A stretch of 64,000 nt of DNA from Daucus carota subsp. sativus (taxonomy: Eukaryota; Streptophyta; Magnoliopsida; Apiales; Apiaceae), in contig NC_030383.2 of NCBI RefSeq assembly GCF_001625215.2, forward strand, positions 47,984,380-48,048,379. Direction: 5' to 3'. The position numbers and the translations under genes are program-made. Under the pieces are notes generated by a model that did not search any database, was not told the origin of the DNA, and saw only the letters and a list, made by a program, of their open reading frames with translations. Positions 3,445 to 42,153 of this stretch are shown piece after piece (position 1 is the stretch's first letter; every line of letters begins with the position of its first letter).

Positions 3445-6400
3445 ATGAAGAGAATGGTGATGAGAAATGCGACGATCCCCGTGATGTTATTCTTCCTGTT
3501 ATGCATGTTCCAAGGCAGTGTACAAGGTCGTCATTTACTATCTTCTGGGCCTGGAATCAGGCCCAAGCCAGATGATGCTGCTCATTTCGCTCGCTGGCTC
3601 GTATCTCAATCTTTTTGGGGTGATCTCAGGTATCCCTTCTCTCACTTTATGTATATATATACCTCTCCAGTCTCCTCCTTTTGTGTTATTCTTGTGCATG
3701 TGTATTATTGTTGATTTTTTGATTTGTTATGTTTCGAATGAATTTCTGATTGTTTTGGAGGAGAAGCTAATGAGCTTGGCGTTTTTTGACTTTTGCAGTA
3801 CCATTGAGAGTGATTTGGGGGGAGCTCCTTTTGGGTATGTTTCTTTCATTTTTTATTCTTTTTTAACTCACTAAAACACAGAGAGGCCTGTTTACGACAG
3901 GACCCTCTGTACACCGCTTTCTTCGATTTTTGCATCATTCATATTCTTCATAGAAAGAACGTAAATCTCTCATAACAAGTTTTACTCCTGCGTAGGGGCT
4001 CTAAGCAGGATGGTAAAACATTCCGATCTGATGGATAATCGATTATTTCCAACCCCATCGAAGATTATCAAGCCCGATAGTTTAGATTTGAGATTAGATT
4101 TGGATGTTATGTGTGAATTTACGTAATAAGGTATAAATATAATAAATAAATATATAGTAATATTTTTGATACAAGATAAATATTATACATCCATTTACTT
4201 CAAAATTTCATTATTACTTAATATTTAAGTCATTCCATTTTCTTTGTTTTAGTAAATCATTTAATTCTTAGTCATATAATTATAAGGATTTAATACCTGA
4301 ACAATATTTATATATGGTTACTCATATAATTTATTTGCTTATATTGTTATTTGTTTTGTGTGTGTGTTATATTGTCGGCTGAAATAACAAAAAAAAATAT
4401 TATTTATGTGTATTAAGTATAATGGATTTTGTTATATTATTTGAAATTTTAATTATCCAAAAAAAAAAACCGATCCAATCAGAAATTCGATTGATTTGTA
4501 TTTGGATTTGATTTCAAGACTCGATAATATTTGAATTTGGATTTGAATTTAGCTAAACTCAGCCATTTGTCATCCCTACATCTAACCTAACATGTCAGGG
4601 TCACACAATATTGGACGGCAAGACTTGAGAGCCTTATACGAATTCAATATGTATGAAGTATGCATTTCTCTAGTCCTTAAGTCTCTATACGAATTCAATA
4701 TGTATGAAATAAATTAAAATCAATTTCTTTGGTCAGAATGAAGCACTTGCCTATATATATAAATATCCTTAATCAGGTAATTTGTGCAAGAGTCATCTCT
4801 AGCTACCTTGCTTAGTAAATGTGTTAATAGAGCATAGTCCAATACAATTTACATTATAACATTAACTTGCTAATCACAAATGGGGTCGGTTTCATATTAA
4901 TGGATTGGTTAAATGACATGTTTTTAGTAGACATTAAAACTTGTGGTATTCTTCCAAGCGGAAAGTTACCATAACATTGGCTCCATAGGCTAGAAGAAGT
5001 AACCGAAGGTAAATTTTACCAGCTTTGCCCATACTTTCAGGCAGAAGGTAAGTTATGCCCTTGTAATCATCAGGCCATTCATCTCATTTTTTAGCATTGT
5101 AAGATGCGTTTGTTCAGTATCCTTCACTATTCTAGTGTGATTGCCTGGATGGTGTGTCATTTTGTGTATATACTATAAGCTAGTAACCATAACATTTTAA
5201 TAAGGTTAAACAATTGAAATGCAAGTTCAAGATTATGAGATTGAGAGCTATTGTCCAACTAATTGCTATCATAGTCCCTTTTCACCCCCTCTATCCACTG
5301 CATTAAGCTGATTTACACTCTCACAAAAATTGCATCCTACTAACACTAATCTAAATTTGATGCAGGAATGTAGTTTCTTTTAGCGATGGGACGCCTGATA
5401 AAGGCACGGGCATCCCATACTTTTACTTGACTCTCTTGGATCCAACAGCTAGAAACGCATTGAAGGACCAGAGGTCATCTTTCACATTAAGTGAGTATAG
5501 TCTTGGAACTTGCGGCAAGACAGACCCGGAGAACCCTACTTGTGCAAAAATTACACTGACAGGAAAGGTATGTACTCTACTAATATGTGATCTTGTGAGC
5601 CTCATGCGTTTGGCCAGAGCATTTTTGCTTATTAAAATTATAAGCACTATGGCATTAAATCTCACTCACTCTCTCTACCACATATTAGGATGCTTGATAG
5701 CATTTTTTGTCATCAATAATTCTCAGTTTATTTAGTTCCAAGTCTGCAATTTCATCTGGTTTACATAAATTTTCGCAAGCAACACAATTTTCATTATTGG
5801 AGCTTGTAAGAGGGCTTGTAATGCCATGATTATTACATCATGATCCCTTTGCTACTACCTCCCTGGATTACAGAAGGGCGTATCATTAGTACAGACAAAG
5901 CTTGTACAATGTAGGTGCTTATGTGAGATTTCGAATTCATGTATACATAAATAACTACTGTAATTTAAAACAAAAAGGTACTCAATGTGAGTGAAAGAAA
6001 GATGATTTATTAGCACAGCAAATTGTGTCCCCAGGAAGATAGTTACTCATAATCTTCTTTATTGAAATATGAGTGTTATATCTGATTACTAGTCTTTGAG
6101 CATTTGGGCTAAGCTAACAAAATTGTATTCACTTGATTATGATATTTTATTCAGTTGAAGATGGTAGATGGCAAATCCAGTGAGGCTAAATATGCTCTAA
6201 CTGCCTTGTTTTCCAAGCATCCGGAGATGAAAGGTAATCTGCACAACTTATATTGATAGAGATACTTTTTTGCAAAAATGATCAGTTCAGGAGAGTTAAA
6301 TATGCTCTGCTAAGACTCAAAACTACTTTCTTGAATTCTCCTTTAAATCAAAATGACCATGTGATTATCTTCATTTTTTATGTTTGGCATGCACATTGCA

Positions 6401-8277: not shown

Positions 8278-10151
8278 CTGTTTACTCGAAATCAATTACT
8301 ACTAAAAACAAGGGAGGCCTGGATGTTTTCTGACATTCGACTAGACATGTGAGTCGATACCTGGCCCAAATTATCATGGTACCGGTTTAGTGAACAGTTT
8401 ACCTACAGTATATTTTAGGTATCTTTCGGTTCATATGTTTCGATATTAATATAAATTTTATTCGTTTCAATTTTCAATTTGTAATCCATATGTGGTATTT
8501 ATCTGAATTTTTTATTATAAAATTCATACCTCAAATTCATAAAATATGATATTTCCATACCTAACAAAGGTGGTGGGTAATAAACATGTGTCTGGAATCA
8601 TATTTTTTCCATCTTTATTTATATTATCAAATATAATTTGTATAATGACTCAAAAAATATAAATATTAATTGAATGAGATCTTAAATTAATTGAATTAAT
8701 AGCTCAAAAATAAATTAATTCAACCACATTTATTCTAACGCCAAACAATACATGATATTAGAAATGATATGTGAACTAGATACTACTATTTTAATCTGAT
8801 TCCAACCATGTAACTCCTCTCGAACCGGAGGCGCGCACTAGATCTGTAAATTATTCTTTATTTGTTCCAGATAGGTATTTGTACATAATTAAGATGAAAA
8901 TAAAGCAAAATAATTATAGGTATAAATATTTTAATAATCATCAATGTGCTTATATAAGGATATTTACATAAATGAGAAGCGAGAGTCATTTAGGTGAAAT
9001 GTCTAAGATAGCTCTATTCTATTTTTTTAATTTTGTGGAATTTTTGTAATATAGATATAAAAAATATAATTTTTTTAATATTGAATATATAGAAAGAAAG
9101 TTTCCAAATATCTTTTTTCAAAATTACCTTTTCCGGTTTCAAAATTATTGGAAGGAGAAAATTCCAAAATTACCTTTTTCAGTATTGGAAGAAAGTTTGA
9201 AAACTAAATTTTTCAGTTTTGAAATTGTTGAAAGGCAGTTTCAAATTATAATATATGCTAAGTTCTAATTTTCTAATTTTCTGAAATTTTTGAATTTTAT
9301 TCGAAATCATTGGAACAAAATTTCATATTATAATATTGGTCTTACAAGACTCTGTACATATTTTTGAGAAGTGTGTACACTATAAACATAAACTATTTTT
9401 TATAATTTTATATTTTTCTATATTAAATATATCTGCATTTTAGAGATAATCAATATATATTTATAAATTGAGGTCATGTATTCTTAACTTTAACACAAAC
9501 AAGTAATTTTTTTAGTTCTTCATCTAATACAATAAAGAGTTACATCATGCTAACACAATTTCATTATTGCTGAAATTTTTAAGTCTGGAGAAACATTTAA
9601 ACAAGAATATGAATCAAAGCAATCAACAAATATATTTCTAATCTCTATTATACTTTATGCACACAAAAATTCATCTCATTAATTATAAGTGTAATATAAT
9701 ATTTTATCATAAATATTTCATGAATATGTGTTTTGGCTGTTTAATTTATCATTATATTATTATTTTATTACATATATAGTTGATAAGTTTTTGCTCAAAT
9801 GAGAAAAAAGATATTTACAAAAGAAGATGAAGAGAACGCCTGAGCAGGCCATGGATAGAAAAAAATAAATGGAATCGATTAGTATAAGTTATAACACATT
9901 CTGCACCACCGTATGTGTTGTAAACATGATGGGTTTGTTATAATATATAACCATCTTGCTTTATGAATTCATAAAAATATCAAAGTTTAAAATTATGTAG
10001 AAATATATTTTAATATTGTTTAATCATAAATTATATTCCAATTTTTTAATTTTTTTACCTTAATGTTAGCTATAAATTGAAATGTTTAATAAAATGAATT
10101 TTATTCTACAAATATTTTTTTAAAGCACAAATATTATCTTTTGATTGTCGA
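8278..10151. other. Intergenic AT-rich stretch, no gene seen
   Basis: Very AT-rich spacer without recognisable reading frames. Around 9090-9260 there is a loosely repeated motif of the form AAAATTACCTTTTTCAG. Nothing else can be supported. Confidence 0.5.
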
Positions 10152-10537
10152 TATATTATTAAAGAACTGTACTGTCTCCTAGCACGGCTCCTAAACTAGT
10201 TATTTGTTGCCTGATTTACATTAATCAAAGACGCGAGGCATGTACTGGGATTTAGAACAACTCCACTCATTATGAAACTTTTTAATTAAAAAATAAGTTG
10301 ATATATCAAAAATAAAAAATCATAGATAATCTTATAAAATAACAATTTAACCATACTCTCCTCTTATTTATAATTTTAGTCAAACTTTTATGAATAACTA
10401 TATTTGTCGAACCACTACAGATTTGTAGCAAATGCTACATCATTAATTTTCCTATTAAAAATACATTCTATTAGGATAACTTAAAATAATAAAAATATAC
10501 TATATTTAAAATATAGATTTTATTTATGACATCTTGA

Positions 10538-10604
<67 letters not shown>

Positions 10605-10647
10605 GTATACTATTTTTAGAATATAACTAGCTGATCAATATAGTCAA
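10152..10647. repeat. Flanking direct repeat, left copy (filled site)
   Basis: This 496-bp sequence recurs at 13747-14266. Apart from the length of an internal (TAA)n run (about 10538-10604 here) I see only one substitution (CTGATC here, CTAATC there). It ends at GTCAA, directly followed by the CTAG end of the Helitron. Confidence 0.9.
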
Positions 10648-10909
10648 CTAGTATTTAAGCCCGCGGTGCTGGGCGCATGCACAACAGAATAGCTTGTACC
10701 GAAATGAAATTCAGTTCCCATTACAGCATTTGTCCAGACTAATACTTGGTTACACACGGGTTATATTTAAAAAACTGAAATGAAAGCAAAGGCAGCGAGT
10801 GAAATGACGAAGTTTTAAATCTGGATTATACAACAACAAAATGCTTAAGCGGAAAGAGAAACTCTTCAAACAGCAGGCCTTGGAAAGAGCAGATCACCTC
10901 AGGACCTCG

Positions 10910-12098
10910 TTAGTGGTTTTGCCAATTAGCCACACTGTTGCATCCAGTAATTTGAAATTGGTTTAACATAATAAGAAGAAGCCTATATTTCAATTTTGTT
11001 TGATAAACTACGAACCTTAAAGCGTTCCTCAAATCATCAACTGCCTCATGATTTGGATTAATGAAAAATCTTGTAGCTTGGAAGTTTGTTACGTTTGGCT
11101 CCTCTATAGTGTACATGTAAACCATTTTTGTGTTAAAATATCACAAAATATTGTAGCTAATTGAAAGCTTAAATTGAAAGGCTCTGTGTTAAAATATCAA
11201 GAAAGAGTACGTGAGAACATTTGAGGTTTGCAGCTCGAGATGATAACCACTATTGGATGTTGGTTGGCTTGTTGGATAGCTTGGTGAAACTCTTCTGCCA
11301 TTTCATTGTAGAAAACTGCTCTGGCCGATGTGCTGTTGAGTATTTTATAGAAAGTTTCAGTAAGAAAACAATAATAATTTGATAAAATTTGTGATTAACA
11401 ATATAGACACATACAACATATCCGTGATTCTAAACTCAACATACTGCTCTTCTTGACCGAGGCGGTTTCTAAAGTGAGTGAGTGGCCCAGCTTGTTCCAA
11501 AATCCCCACAACATCTACAACATAAAAAGAGATTTTGTCAAATTTCTTCACTTGATTTATGAAACAATTCTACTTAATGGAAACTTATTACCAATCAGAT
11601 ATTTCTGTTCCTGTGCAGCAGTGTACAAAGCATCCAAATCAGTAAAATCGAATACATGCTGCTGGATGTAATCCACACCTCCAGTAACCATAACTTCAGT
11701 CAAATTGTTTAACTGGATGTAGATATCATTCTTAAAACATCTACCATGTTGCATGTCCGCATATCGCCTAACAATAAAGTTATTCACATCATAGGTTTCT
11801 CCTTCAGTAAAATAATTCTCTAGCTGGCCGATGTATGGTGCAGGAATTGTTGCGTGAATTCTCCCTCCCTGCATGTAAATAAGTCTATTAACAACATAAA
11901 AAATTATTATTATACATTTTTTTGTAGACTTTTGATTAGCTCTCTTACCAGCGCATCAACGAAAATCAAGTTGATTGCAACCCTCTGTGCATTCCGGGTC
12001 ATCTGGTTCCACATTCTTGTTAGTCGAACCTTGAGCCTCCAACCATTTCCTGTGTTAGGCCGCAGGTTGTTTATCATGTGATAAGGAATATTATCCAT
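10910..12098 (-). CDS. RPA70-like OB-fold single-strand DNA-binding protein (copy B)
   Basis: Short protein of the plant family usually annotated as replication protein A 70 kDa DNA-binding subunit (DUF223-type N-terminal OB fold). Such proteins bind single-stranded DNA; in Helitrons they are thought to assist rolling-circle transposition. Exons by eye: 12098-11949, 11868-11592, 11514-11415, 11332-11211, 11103-11016, 10934-10910. Phases agree and give 253 residues without interruption. Typical blocks are WRLKVRLTRMW near residue 20, INLIFVDAL at the end of exon 1, GGRIHATIP opening exon 2, YLIGDVVGIL at the exon 2/3 join, and FRITDM. Exons 2-5 have exactly the same lengths as in copy A (277, 100, 122 and 88 nt). 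The last exon (25 nt) and the exon 4/5 junction are the least certain. It is the only whole-looking gene inside the Helitron. Confidence 0.75.
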
Positions 12099-12692
12099 AA
12101 TTTTTTTATCTCTCTCAGTTGTTCAGCAAGGTAGAATTTATATTAGTTATTGATTCCATAGAGCTTCTTCAATTATGGATGAACACTGTTTATGTTCTTG
12201 GCTGGTAGTCATGATTGTAAAGATTCTTCCTACTTTAAATCTGTCGTCCTGGTCATTTCAGTTTTGTTTATGAAACTATTCATAGAAATGCAGTTTATGA
12301 GCACAGTTACCTTGAATGGTGCAGGAAGAGTCAGCTTCAGCTTTTGCTTTTGCTTTATCTCTGTCACCACTGCTTTCCAATGAGTTGTCAATATTTCATA
12401 CTGTTCTTGCAAAAAAATCTTTTCAAAGTTATTAGCTCCTGCATAAGCTTCAACAATTATCAAACAAATTACAGGAGTAATAATTCCTTCTAACTCAGTC
12501 TGTGTTCAGTTTGCATTAGAATACTGAAGCTGGGATTACAAATACTGTTTGGAGTAAAAACTCACAATACATTGGTTATATGAAAAAAACTGAAACATGA
12601 AAATGTTTAGCAGAGCAAATAGACATCGCTCCAATAGGAAACAGTTTTCTTGAGGAATTCATCCTTCGAAAATAGCAAAAAAAATTTCAATC

Positions 12693-13746
12693 TCATGGAT
12701 TATTATGCCTTTCAGCAAACCTGTAAAATCGAATAGTGGGAGATTTGAATTTAGATCTCAGTTAATAATATAATTTTAAACAAAGTGTGTGACTTGTTAA
12801 ACCTTATTGCGGCCCTTAGATCTTCAACTGCCTCGTGGTTGTGATTTATGAAAAACCTTGTTGGTTCAAAGTTTGTCAAGGTTGCTTCACCTAAAACAAA
12901 GATGTTAAATTTTGTTTGCAAACTATTCTAGTAATATGAACGTAATTGTAACTTCTGTACCTGTTACCATTTGAGCTTTACAACTGGAAATTATAACTAT
13001 AATTGGATGCTGGACGGCATCATGGATGGCCTGATTAAATGATTGTGCCATTTCCTTATAGAAAATCACTTGTGCAGATTTCCTGCACAATGAATTATAT
13101 TATGTTTAAAGAATCAAGTGATTTACATGTTAATAACTATGTAGATTATTGAACTAAACACTAACTCGATATCAGTTATTGTAAACTGAATACATGATTC
13201 TTGCTCCATGTTATTGTTTGTGAAGCTAGTGATTGGCTGAATCTCTACCAGTATTCCAACAACATCTGTATGGAATAATTAAACATAACCGAAGCAGATA
13301 GTTGTGAAGAAATACGAACGATGTGTAGAAAAATCTACAGGAAGAATAAGACTGACCGATGAGAAATTGGTCATCGCCAACCACAGCCATTAAAGCCGAC
13401 AATTTTGTGAATTGGAAGACATTATGCGGGATATAATCCACAGCTCCAGTGTGCAAAACCTGAGTCATATGATTCAGTCTGATATAGAAAACCTTCCTGA
13501 AGCATCTTCCATTTTGGATGTCCGTATAGTTCCGAACAACAAAATTTTGCACATCATACGTTTCTCCTTCAATAATATGACTTCCCAGGCGTTGCATTTG
13601 TAGTGCAGGAAGCCATGCATGAATTCGACCTCCCTATATGTTAAATAGTAAGTTACCAAAAGAAAACAATGCAGGCAAACAAATTAAAATATGTCAACAT
13701 ACCAATTCATCGACAAAGATCATGTTTAGGCCAAGATTTTCTGCAC
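12693..13746 (-). pseudogene. RPA70-like OB-fold gene, 5'-truncated (copy A)
   Basis: Second copy of the same gene family, directly upstream of copy B on the same strand. Exons: 13746-13703 (partial), 13633-13357, 13265-13166, 13082-12961, 12890-12803, 12720-12693. The first exon is cut at 13746 by the repeat junction, leaving only AENLGLNMIFVDEL of its coding end, so no start codon remains. The rest reads through: GGRIHAWLPALQMQRLG, an FVVRNYTDIQNGRCF block, and FFINHNHEAVEDLRAAIR, then a short tail to a stop at 12693. It differs from copy B at many positions, so the duplication of the two genes is much older than the near-identical flanking repeats. Confidence 0.75.
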
Positions 13747-14132
13747 TATATTATTAAAGAACTGTACTGTCTCCTAGCACGGCTCCTAAACTAGTTATTT
13801 GTTGCCTGATTTACATTAATCAAAGACGCGAGGCATGTACTGGGATTTAGAACAACTCCACTCATTATGAAACTTTTTAATTAAAAAATAAGTTGATATA
13901 TCAAAAATAAAAAATCATAGATAATCTTATAAAATAACAATTTAACCATACTCTCCTCTTATTTATAATTTTAGTCAAACTTTTATGAATAACTATATTT
14001 GTCGAACCACTACAGATTTGTAGCAAATGCTACATCATTAATTTTCCTATTAAAAATACATTCTATTAGGATAACTTAAAATAATAAAAATATACTATAT
14101 TTAAAATATAGATTTTATTTATGACATCTTGA

Positions 14133-14223
<91 letters not shown>

Positions 14224-14266
14224 GTATACTATTTTTAGAATATAACTAGCTAATCAATATAGTCAA
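13747..14266. repeat. Flanking direct repeat, right copy (empty site)
   Basis: Second copy of the 10152-10647 sequence, with a longer (TAA)n run (about 14133-14223). Its left edge joins directly to RPA exon sequence. Its right edge continues from GTCAA into TACAATCGATAT, i.e. the uninterrupted target site of the Helitron. The near identity of the copies implies a recent event or an assembly duplication. Confidence 0.9.
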
Positions 14267-15580
14267 TACAATCGATATAAAATATGTTACGGGTTCCATA
14301 AATTTTACATATTATTTTATAGATTAAATTTAGCTAATATAATCTAAATAGAAGATGCTGGGCCGATGTTCATGTCGCTAGGCATGACTTGTATAACAAG
14401 TGAGGAGCTTAAAATGGGTGTGGATAATTTTGACTTATGAGTTATTAAAAATATAATAAAAATAAAAATGATTTATGGGCAACTTATGTCTTATGAATAA
14501 TTTTTATATAAAAAAAGTTAAAAAAAATTAAGTCACTAAACTAAAATAAGTACCTCAAACTAACTTCTAAGTCAGTTTCAGCTTACACAAACAGAAATCT
14601 GGCTTCTAACTTATGACACAAACAGACATTTTTCAGGTTAAAATTAAAAACAACTTTAAACTCTAGAACAAACAGGCTCCACATCTGGTCTACACGGAGT
14701 AGGCAGCACACGAAAATTGGAAAAATCTAAAAAAGATTTTCTATGATTTGCGTTTGCTCGTGGGCACACAATAGTCACTAACTTTCATGAAAATGATAAG
14801 TTTTGATTGATGGATGAATAATAAATGTTGATGGCCCTATGCATACACACAAATTTCACCAATAAAAACAAGTCATTTTCATGAGAGTTGGTACTTATTG
14901 TGTGCCTTTGGACACACATTCATGTGCGTGAACACAATAATATAAGGGAGTCGTCTCGGTATCACAATTCACAAGTAATTTACAAGAAAGATGTAGTCGT
15001 CATTCTAGGAGAAGCTTTTCTTCTCTCTCCACCGAGATGAGTGAGCTAAATTAGTTCCCTTGAGTTCTCTATATCTTCATTCCCGGTCAACCAAAACAAG
15101 TCATTATGCTTTGGCTACCGGTGATTGTGGAGCATATATAATGTCTTCCTGCTCTCTCTTTCTCAGATCACAAGAGCTAGGGATGATCAATTTTGTTCAT
15201 AACAGCATACTGTGCTGCCGTGTCGGGGAATCAAGCGTACTGGTCCGATGTATATATGTATGTATTTATATATGTTGTTTGCTGCCTGCAGCTTCTACTT
15301 TACTTCCGAATTCATGCATGATGCATGATTTTGTTTATTGCTAGCCTTTTTGCCTTGACATTAAGGCCTACCTTATTTTAGTTTCGGATGATCCTCAAAG
15401 TCGTACCACATCCAAATATCGACTTCACAGATCTTTACTATTTGCTGTATATATATTTTACAAGCGAGATGATTCTATGCGTGTGCGCGCAGTACTCTCT
15501 TTTGAAGAAAAAACATGTTTGCTATTATTCACATTGACAGATAGGAAGAAAAGCCCATATGCCGATAATGAAGAACCATA
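14267..15580. other. Intergenic, possible MITE remnant
   Basis: No gene seen. At about 14400-14680 there is a stretch ending in CAAACAGGCTCC with CTTCTAACTTATGACA-type words, which resembles the GGGCCTGTTTG ends of common plant hAT or Tourist MITEs, but no clean left end or target duplication was found. The rest is AT-rich spacer. Confidence 0.35.
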
Positions 15581-38309: not shown

Positions 38310-41203
38310 TTAGTTAACCTGCTCCCCGACTAAGTCCAATCCAACGACAAGAAAAGCCAAACCTTGGAAAAGGAGATAGTAGAAATGAATTCCATGAGCA
38401 GATAACAGGCTTCTCGCAGCAGCAGTGAGTAGTAAAAAGGCAAGGGCAAGTTCCTTTCTGTACAACTTGTTCTTCTTTTTTGATACTGGGGCCTCCTCTT
38501 GTTCCTTTAGTTTACCCAACATTTCAAGACCAGATTCAGATAATCCCCTCTGAATTTTTTCATTGTTTAAAGTCTTTGTTTCGCGCTCAGCGAGAGAAAG
38601 TAAGTCTGATTCGGATGATCTTCCTGTTTTCTTCGTGACTATCCATTCATAAGAGCTTCCAAGCTGAAATAGCCCCGATATCATAGCATTGAACTTTGTC
38701 ACGGACATTGTATTCTCAAAAAGTAGGTAAGGGATCAAGAATGGGAAAGACTTTGGTGCAGGTAGAATGTTTAAAATGGACATGGAGATAGGAATGTAAC
38801 AAATGACCCAAATAGGTAACTCTGCCTCGGGTACGAACATGGTTAATGGTAGGATGATACAAAATAGAGTGAATGAGTAAAAAGGAAGTATCAGCTTCCT
38901 TAGGAGAAAAAATAGAAAAATCAAGTTAGCCTTCTTCCACTTTGATATCTGCAATGACAAATTCAGATTTTATAAGCTTGTAAGACTTGCAGCTACCAAG
39001 AGTAGAAAGGAATTACACAGCATATGATAGACAAACCTTGGAACTTAGGATTGCAGGAAAACATAGCCGAAAGAGTTGCATTGGACCAGAGTGCCAGCGG
39101 TACTGTTGCTTCTTATATGCTTCATAAGACTCTGGTAGTTCACATGGTACTTCGACATCGTTAAGATAGATAAATTTCCACCCATTTAAATGTGCTCGAA
39201 CTGCAATATCCATATCCTCTACGGTTGTCCTCTCAAGCCAGCCTCCTGACTGTTCCAAGGCCCTAATCCTCCACACACCAGCAGTGCCATTGAATCCAAA
39301 GAAATTTAGGAAAAAACCATTCACTTGTTGTTCAACCTCAAAATGAAAGCATAAATTAATGTTTTGCAGCCTGGTGAGCAAATTCTCTTCTTTGTTCACA
39401 AACGACCAGCGAGCCTGAACAAGGGCTAAGTCTGAGTTTCCCTGAAAAGCAAATGACAACCACCTTAAATTTAAACTTTGGAATCTTTGCCAATTATTAA
39501 TCAAGTGCAGAGAAAGGATAATTCTTACATTGAAGTGAGGTACAGTAAGCTTTAGATAATCAGGGTAGGGCTGGAAATCTGCATCAAATATAGCCACAAA
39601 TTCGTAGTCTTTGACATAGTCACAAGACATGGCAGCCTTCAAATTGCCAGCCTTATAACCAGTTCTGACGAACCGGTGTCTGTATACTATATTGACCCCT
39701 TTTTCTCTCCATGAAGAAACCTCGTCTTGTATTAATAGTTGTACAAGCTCATCGTCAGAATCATCAAGAACCTGAATCAATAATCGTTCTTTTGGCCAAT
39801 CCAGCTGACAGGCAGCAGATATGGATGTTGCGAAAACCTGAATTTATAACATTATGTTAATTTCAGAAAAGAAACCTTAACAACCACATTACCTAACAAA
39901 TTATTTTTAAACTGAACAAAAGGAGCAGCTCATTCGTGAATCTCTACTCATGAGTTAAATGTGAAGTCCCGGTGAGATACTTTTTTCAAAAAAAAAAAAC
40001 CAAAAACAAACTCATAAGTTATTTTACAAGACTCGAAAAAACAAATTCTCCATCTGAAAGGGGATTTTAGTTCTCAAACCAATTGGCCAAATGTCAAAAA
40101 ACATCTGTCAGAGCAGTTATACTCCCTCCAAAGTTTATGCATCAGAATTACAACTAGTTAATTTGAAAGTACTGAATAGCAGTGTAGTTCCAGTAGGGTT
40201 GTAATATATGAGCAACTTGCCAAAAGCAAAAGGACAATTTTCCCATCATTATTCTTTCCTATTCAAAAGCATATTCTTGTTTTCAGTAAATATTAGTACT
40301 ACTAGAACAGCTCAGCAGACAAAATAAATTACTTGAGAAACTAATACAGCAAATAACTACTCTATATAATGAATACATATGGCATATAGGCATGCTTAGC
40401 CTATAAACTTTAAAAACCCGTAAAAATCACGCAGTAACAAATCATATGTCTCAATAATACAAACCGTCTTTCGACAAATCACCAAATTTAGTATTACAAA
40501 TGCTAGTTATTGCTGGTAAATGAGTTGAATTTATATGAACATGTGTGTGTGTGTGTGTAATGTAGAGAGGAGAGACAGAGAAGTGCACCTCTTTCTCATT
40601 GCACATGGGAATCTGAACAAGAACCATTGGAAAACTTAAAGAATCCTCAACATCATAAGCCTCCCCCTTAATCTCTGGCTTCAGCTTGTTCCACTTGATC
40701 CAAAAACACCAAATCCCAAGAGCAAACCTATCCACTGATTGAATCAAGAACAGCACAATGCAGAATTTAGAGAGGCTCATAATTGCAGGTGCTACATAAT
40801 CAACTCTAAAAGCAAGCCAGGCCTTATAACACCACTGCACAAACCCCTCTACTTCCCAATGATGAGTCATCTTCAAATCCCATTCCTCAAAATAAGCCAC
40901 CATTTCTATAACCAAAGCCACCACTGAAATTGCAAGAAAAACCCTTATAAAGCTATACAATCTCCCCCTGTATTTAGGCTCTTCTTCCCCAACATCAGAT
41001 AAAGTCACCCTCTTTTTAACTGAATCAAACATTGCAGGAGCAGCCATTGACAGCCATGAAAACAATCTTTGAGCTTTGAGAAGAAGAACCCATGATAACT
41101 GCTTAGTACTTGCAGCTTTTTGCTTATCTTTTGTATCATTGATCTCCACTAAAGAAAAGTTACTGGGCTTGTCTATCTTCACCACAACAGAACTGGGTGC
41201 CAT
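38310..41203 (-). CDS. CSLC: Cellulose synthase-like C (xyloglucan backbone glucan synthase)
   Basis: Family 2 glycosyltransferase of the Golgi that makes the beta-1,4-glucan backbone of xyloglucan; works with xylosyltransferases. Four exons by eye: 41203-40589, 39837-39529, 39441-39037, 38948-38310; all phase 0, 655 residues, slightly short of the usual ~670-700. The N-terminus [20 protein letters not shown] is the CSLC signature and fixes the start. Two membrane segments lie at about residues 95-115 and 160-180. Catalytic motifs: DDSDDE (230-235), DAD (290-292), VEDMD (382-386) and QQYRW (420-424). Further C-terminal membrane segments follow, with a charged loop ([10 protein letters not shown]) between them. 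All catalytic residues are present. A CTTATATATATG stretch (minus strand, about 41284-41295) may be the TATA box. The exact CSLC subtype is not decided. Confidence 0.96.
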
Positions 41204-42153
41204 TTTTCTTGATGTCTGATTCTCTAAAACCAAAGAATGCAACATAAAAATCACAACATCATATATCAAACAGATTCATATAATCATATATATAAGCAAA
41301 GTAGCTCTTTTTACTAAAAAAATAAATCTTGACAGAAAAAAGTTGCAAACTTTTGATTAAATTTTAAAGAATCTTAGAAACATAGTGAATGGGTACAAGG
41401 TAGTTTGGTAGCAGAAGAAATGAATCAAAATTAAATATATGAAGAAATGAGACACACACACACTAATGTGTAAATGTAATGAACATATTTTTTATTTTTA
41501 CCAGAATGAGTTTGTGATGAAAATGGAAGCTTCAGGCCAGGCTATAGTTTAAAAGACTGACTTGATCTTGAAGAGTAGTACTATAACAAAGAGTATTCGA
41601 TAGTCAACTGAAGGATTTTTTATTGTATTAATCAGATGGCTGGGAGATGTACAAAAAGAATAAAAGAATACGTACTCCGGCGGTATCAGAATCTTATATT
41701 TCTTTTGAATTAATTGTGAGATTTTTATAATCCATCTCTAAGTAGCCTCTCTTGAGTATTTACTTTTCAAAGATATTATAACATTTATGAATATTTGTTT
41801 CCTTGTTTTGTATAGAACTTTATATTATCTGAGATTCAGATTAAATGACGATAATATTTTATGTTGCGGTGAATTTTTGTGGTAAAATGTTTATGATTGT
41901 GCTATACTTAAAATCATATCGTACATCCCGTAATTTAAATATCCTAAATCATTATATTTGACATATGTCGCATAAAGTACATCGTAAATCGATATATTTA
42001 ACATATATTGTGTCTACTATATTTTGTCAATAATCCAAAACCAAATTTCATCATTGAATATAAATTTTTCATATAAGATGTCGTGGATTTAATAATTATA
42101 AATAATAAATACTATATTTCCCGTTCCCCATTACTGAATCTGATATAACAGTG

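Follow-up and report, generated by a model that had tools for sequence, protein, structure and literature searches.

Introduction

How does a Helitron that has lost its 5′ end come to lie between two long copies of the very sequence into which it was inserted? The question is raised by a stretch of the carrot genome, C3:47984380-48048379, henceforth called the window (the whole 64,000 bp that was analysed), in which a minus-strand Helitron with RPA-like cargo separates two direct repeats of roughly 500 bp, one of them abutting the 3′ terminus of the element and the other carrying the same target without interruption. A first-pass annotation of this DNA had recognised the arrangement and ascribed it either to an illegitimate exchange involving chromosomes with and without the insertion or to an error of assembly. 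The analysis presented here leads to another answer, namely that the window probably holds a 5′-truncated Helitron whose insertion duplicated some 500 bp of its own target, and this is one of three such structures found in the carrot genome.

Genome-wide searches covered an 11-contig, 441-Mb genome, which is taken to be the carrot DH1 v3 assembly. As published, DH1 v3 derives from a doubled haploid plant sequenced by means of PacBio, Nanopore, and Hi-C data, and is described as nine sequences totalling 440.7 Mb, with the longest at 64.5 Mb and an N50 of 51.1 Mb (PMC10581907).

A truncated Helitron between two copies of its target site

The repeats, the element, and their junctions are located as follows (window coordinates).

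10152..10647, no strand: R1, the target copy abutting the Helitron 3′ end, which runs on into the left flank (496 bp; alignment)
10648..10651, minus strand: Helitron 3′ terminus CTAG, followed by the target T on the Helitron strand (sequence, alignment)
10648..13746, minus strand: 5′-truncated Helitron (3,099 bp; 3′ end pattern common to 96 other places; homology to L056 and L055)
10659..10674, minus strand: subterminal GCCCAGCACCGCGGGC, 7 bases before CTAG (hairpin with a bulge by inspection; end pattern)
13746..13747, no strand: junction of the truncated Helitron with R2 (the two share about 1 bp, judged by eye)
13747..14266, no strand: R2, the second target copy, which runs on into the right flank (520 bp; alignment)
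14266..14267, no strand: uncut A|T target dinucleotide, the empty-site junction GTCAA|TACAAT in R2 (alignment)

R1 and R2 are each contiguous with one outer flank and enclose the Helitron between them, which is the layout of a target-site duplication. At its inner border R1 reads GTCAA|CTAG, directly abutting the terminus of the element, and the corresponding junction of R2 is unbroken; both readings had been given in the first-pass annotation and are borne out by alignment, as are its coordinates for the two repeats, to within a few bases. The alignment also reproduces the differences that it had reported, with one substitution and 24 gap columns that all fall within (TAA)n. A single substitution over 496 aligned bases suggests that the event was recent, in keeping with the earlier claim of recency. 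The (TAA)n run itself occupies about 10540-10604 in one copy and 14135-14223 in the other, so that a 24-bp length gap separates copies that are otherwise one base apart. The left flank is repetitive up to about 10142, and parts of the right flank are likewise repetitive.

The two copies could also have been separate insertions of an independent high-copy element with these same borders, and the first-pass annotation had named this as the finding that would undo its interpretation. In the genome search, for which the best 40 of 1,029 candidates were scored and all counts are lower bounds, only two full-length copies (~500 bp) stood among the 50 matches listed for a query of window positions 10100-10700, and both lie inside the window. 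Most of the other listed matches cover only about 10250-10516 (~265 bp) at 72-81% identity, and none of the 50 has the same ends beyond the window; the idea of a dispersed element was therefore set aside, and the repeated sequence does not look like a mobile element in its own right.

The identity of the inserted DNA follows from its 3′ end and its relatives. A CTRR terminus preceded by a hairpin is present as CTAG and GCCCAGCACCGCGGGC, with the pairing judged by eye, and a 28-nt pattern drawn from this end recurs at 97 genomic places (43 forward, 54 reverse) with up to 3 mismatches, compared with none for a reversed control pattern. Insertion lies between A and T, in GTCAA|TACAAT in the window and in ATA|TTC and TAA|TAA at the two further loci described below. 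Moreover, 1.19 kb at the 3′ end of the window Helitron is 99% identical to L056, and 1.36 kb is 95% identical to L055. The opposite end is of a different kind: the element stops within an exon at 13746, and a 5′ TC joined to A is absent from this copy. An 87%-identical homologue, L057 (C4), aligns up to 13747 and then continues, which upholds the earlier statement that the 5′ end has been lost and that the right repeat is fused inside an exon. Judged from this homology, the window Helitron is a truncated descendant of a longer element, and the ~1 bp shared at its junction with R2 is compatible with end joining. The absence of target-site duplication that is expected of Helitrons does not hold here, given repeats of 496/520 bp in the window, 46 bp at L055, and 15-18 bp at L017.

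Two further loci with the same layout

At L055 (C9:7126300-7135000), the 46 bp that follow CTAG recur 2,505 bp upstream with no mismatch; the repeat begins at the base following CTAG, and its upstream copy sits in ...CTCATA|TTCATAT. About 1.1 kb of unrelated sequence lies between this upstream copy and the RPA-like part of the element, and contains a fragment of another gene.

4364-5469 of L055, minus strand: RecA-like gene fragment with apparent introns and a frameshift, within the 46-bp repeats beside the truncated Helitron (Pfam, inspection)

The RecA C-terminal domain scores 33.6 bits (cut-off 27) for a peptide read across the frameshift and 22 bits without the frameshift reading.

The third locus, L017 (C5), holds 1.56 kb of a Helitron from a related subfamily, with a 3′ end 4 substitutions away from the 28-nt pattern. 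L015 and L016 match it at 97-99% identity, and each other at 98% over 3.3 kb; both reach at least 1.7 kb further in the 5′ direction, and the break of L017 is thus independently defined by homology. The 15 bp that follow CTAG (17 of 18 bp with one mismatch) are repeated just before this break, where the upstream copy reads ...GATTAA|TAAGAT, and the repeat ends at most 3 bp from the point at which identity to L015 and L016 stops. The three loci (window, L055, and L017) agree in two details: the first base of the repeat is the one that follows CTAG, and an A stands immediately before the upstream copy. For every one of them, insertion with duplication of the target is an explanation that calls for a single step.

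Survey of insertion sites and controls

The test covered 20 insertion sites at which a 3′ end could be recognised (allowing for up to 4 substitutions), including 13 of the 97 pattern-defined 3′ ends; the other 7 sites, L017 among them, are 4 substitutions off the pattern. Chance matching was gauged by two controls. In an offset control of 1,389 flank positions at 18 loci, the upstream matches reached 13 bp at most, and two of them were 12 bp or longer; the window locus and L055 (156 positions) are omitted from this control, as most long matches there fall within the duplications themselves. In a cross-locus control of 380 pairs, matches of at least 12, 14, and 15 bp occur in 7, 5, and 3 pairs, respectively, and all pairs of at least 14 bp come from L025 and L035, whose flanks open with a TA microsatellite.

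Several results of this survey weigh against a target-duplicating insertion. Only 3 of the 20 sites carry a repeat, with the qualification that 14 of the 17 negative sites were covered just 2.7-3.4 kb upstream, so that their 5′ ends may lie beyond. For the near-identical L056, of which truncation has left 1.19 kb, the 15 kb upstream contain no repeat of at least 9 bp that starts at the 3′ junction, and no convincing repeat was found at L056, L057, or L058 over 11.9-16.6 kb upstream (11.9 kb for L057 and 16.6 kb for L058); L058 has just 9-bp matches (or 13/15 bp), preceded by C or G. The truncation point of L055 is not independently defined, because about 1.1 kb of unrelated, partly RecA-like sequence occupies its 5′ side. 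The repeat of L017 is short, with a BLAST E value of 0.006 when the start position is not required, and its length of 15 bp is equalled by 3 of the 380 cross-locus pairs, though these involve TA-repeat flanks.

Weaker candidates were not counted. At L025 and L035, matches of 10 and 14 bp reflect a TA tract that both elements also contain internally; with mismatches allowed they extend to 29 and 72 bp, with identities of 77% and 62%, respectively (E of 0.12 and 0.015). The matches at L016 and L032 are weak (E about 1-2).

The survey also yielded observations on individual ends. L056 (C3:49987500-49996000) holds, at about 4076-5458, a near-identical truncated Helitron on the same chromosome as the window and 2 Mb away from it. 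It is joined to an apparent chalcone-synthase exon 1 with the start of intron 1 (Pfam 67.5 bits; intron by eye), and no exon 2 was seen by eye in the list of open reading frames; this piece may be a captured fragment. In the flanks L067-L106, the bases after CTAG look strongly AT-rich by eye, and many begin with TATATA or contain ATATTG. The flank of L067 (C1:15663720) has a 95% match over its whole length at C2:1966705-1966814, which is either a repeat or possibly an empty paralogous site.

The RPA-like cargo and the remainder of the window

The coding pieces of the element form two related blocks.

11013..12103, minus strand: RPA-like (DUF223) block 1, exons with apparent introns (internal repeat; Pfam DUF223 25.5 and 18.9 bits)
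12799..13746, minus strand: block 2, a diverged repeat of block 1, interrupted within an exon at 13746 (71-76% identical to parts of block 1)

Three peptides were tested against Pfam DUF223, which is presumably an RPA-type OB fold: of the two block 1 scores, one lies just above the cut-off of 24.6 bits and the other below it, and the block 2 peptide gave no match. In the description of the locus as a Helitron with RPA cargo, the Helitron stands, and RPA is a probable rather than a firm label, with a single DUF223 match exceeding the cut-off. The coding pieces lie in separate frames, and GTAAG or GTATG follows the exon ends by inspection, so apparent introns have been kept.

Tandem, diverged RPA-like blocks are also found inside L057 and L058, at 67-68% identity, compared with 71-76% in parts for the window blocks. 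In a by-eye alignment, the breaks in RPA-like sequence (window 13746, L017 1397, and L055 4363) fall within roughly 15 bp of a common point in one exon, which may be either chance or a fragile spot; the break at L055 4363 is the join to the RecA-like piece and not a repeat junction. Elsewhere in the window, open reading frames at 38310-41269 on the minus strand resemble a gene for a cellulose-synthase-like glycosyltransferase.

Alternative explanations

The exchange offered by the first-pass annotation survives best among the alternatives. According to this explanation, a complete Helitron was inserted first, and a later internal break was repaired by joining or template switching to a homologue or sister without the insertion, at a point some 500 bp away from the site, which would leave a product identical to that observed. 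The outcome is thus compatible with the sequence, but the exchange presupposes a complete insertion, a partner that is still empty, and a further illegitimate event, and L055 and L017 would each have had to take the same course and land on the 3′ side, no more than about 500 bp away. An accident of this kind between homologues would be expected to be unique; since two more loci share the architecture, it is no longer the simplest reading and is considered unlikely.

The order of events may instead be reversed, with the Helitron entering one copy of a pre-existing tandem duplication and a deletion then removing its 5′ part together with the spacer up to R2. Each of these steps is ordinary, and copies one substitution apart would suit them; nevertheless, three events would be required here and again at L055 and L017, where the duplications would have been just 46 and 15-18 bp, which renders this order quite improbable.

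A comparably small probability is assigned to the Helitron fragment being filler DNA, captured without transposase during the repair of a staggered break and surrounded by a duplication that only resembles that of a transposon. In human and mouse cells, small tandem duplications are described as arising through fill-in at 3′-protruding breaks (PMC8355091), and a foreign gene fragment lies inside the L055 repeats. The exact boundary counts against it: at three of three loci the repeat starts precisely after CTAG and the other copy follows A, and random filler would not end at the terminus of an element.

The placement of two haplotypes in tandem by the assembler, the other proposal of the first-pass annotation, would explain why near-identical flanks surround a filled junction in one copy and an empty one in the other, but it is considered very improbable, because the assembly sizes match those of the doubled-haploid DH1 v3 and the window contains no N, while the junction lies inside an exon and two other loci show the same pattern.

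A proposed one-ended integration route

Insertion with duplication of the target thus remains the probable account of the window, and the question becomes how a Helitron might bring it about. In the accepted HUH nuclease chemistry, the target is cut at A|T, the CTAG-3′OH of the element is joined to T, and the target A-3′OH is joined to the 5′ TC end. The order in which the two Helitron ends are joined to the target is, to our knowledge, unsettled.

At the three carrot loci, the transposase would nick the target between A and T, and the CTAG 3′ end of the element would be joined to T, as normally occurs. If the 5′ TC end were missing or broken, the target A-3′OH would be left unjoined, and this free 3′ end could serve as a primer and be extended along the intact opposite strand, copying the adjacent target over about 500 bp in the window, 46 bp at L055, and 15-18 bp at L017. 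Alternatively, a second nick on the other strand would create a staggered break, the fill-in of which would give the same product. End joining or template switching would then link the new end with the Helitron strand at its broken 5′ end. The expected product would have a precise 3′ end, a lost 5′ end, and a duplication of variable length starting at T, and the repeats would accordingly date from the insertion itself.

We put forward tentatively, and with slightly less than even confidence, that Helitrons have a second, one-ended route of integration, in which the 3′ end is joined first, the target primes the synthesis of 15 to 500 bp, and the broken 5′ side is sealed, sometimes with foreign DNA. 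Such a route, if true, would yield 5′-truncated copies with true target duplications, and it could be one way in which fragments of host genes join the 5′ side of an element, such as the RecA-like piece at L055 and the exon beside L056. Such insertions would mean that joining of the 3′ end does not depend on joining of the 5′ end, and they would reveal the repair that the cell carries out subsequently.

Comparison with known systems

One formal resemblance is to insertions of the LINE type, which combine a fixed 3′ end with variable 5′ truncation and a variable target duplication. Unlike these, the window copy has no poly-A at its 3′ junction, keeps apparent introns, and has a Helitron terminus as its 3′ end; a LINE-mediated retrocopy was rejected on these grounds, as CTAG passes directly into target DNA. 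Among modes of repair, patch-mediated repair was reportedly described in rice by Vaughn and Bennetzen, and gap patching is said to have been described by Wicker.

With canonical Helitrons, including the RPA-bearing ones of plants, the window copy shares the CTAG 3′ end, the preceding palindrome, insertion at A|T, and RPA-like cargo; it departs from them in its target duplication and in the loss of the 5′ end. In published accounts Helitrons do not produce target-site duplications, and this absence serves to describe them (PMC5876387; PMC13286980; PMC4683698; PMC6544945). No report of target duplication at Helitron insertions was found in the available portions of the open-access literature, with subscription journals mostly outside this scope, and no priority is claimed.

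The Helitrons of bats offer another comparison. In Myotis, 5′-truncated Helitrons are mentioned as pre-existing (PMC4778049); the lost 5′ end is held in common with the window copy, and a target duplication is not mentioned for the bat copies in the available text of that report. Helraiser, the reconstructed bat Helitron, likewise gives non-canonical insertions with one faithful and one altered end, and constructs that lack the hairpin or the 3′ end are described as producing a faithful 5′ TC end and a variable 3′ end (PMC4778049). These one-sided events are the mirror image of the carrot copy, which keeps a faithful 3′ end and loses its 5′ end. Similarly, the AT-rich sequence after the carrot CTAG ends resembles the AT-rich preference of Helraiser on the 3′ side (PMC4778049).

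Transposed genes of Arabidopsis, finally, share with the carrot locus the arrangement of inserted gene DNA between direct copies of a target (PMC2869330). The authors of that work name a long target duplication as one possible cause of the flanking direct repeats and favour recombination between repeats, and the word Helitron is absent from the text. A one-ended route of Helitron integration might explain part of the capture of gene fragments by Helitrons, together with some of the direct repeats that surround moved plant genes.

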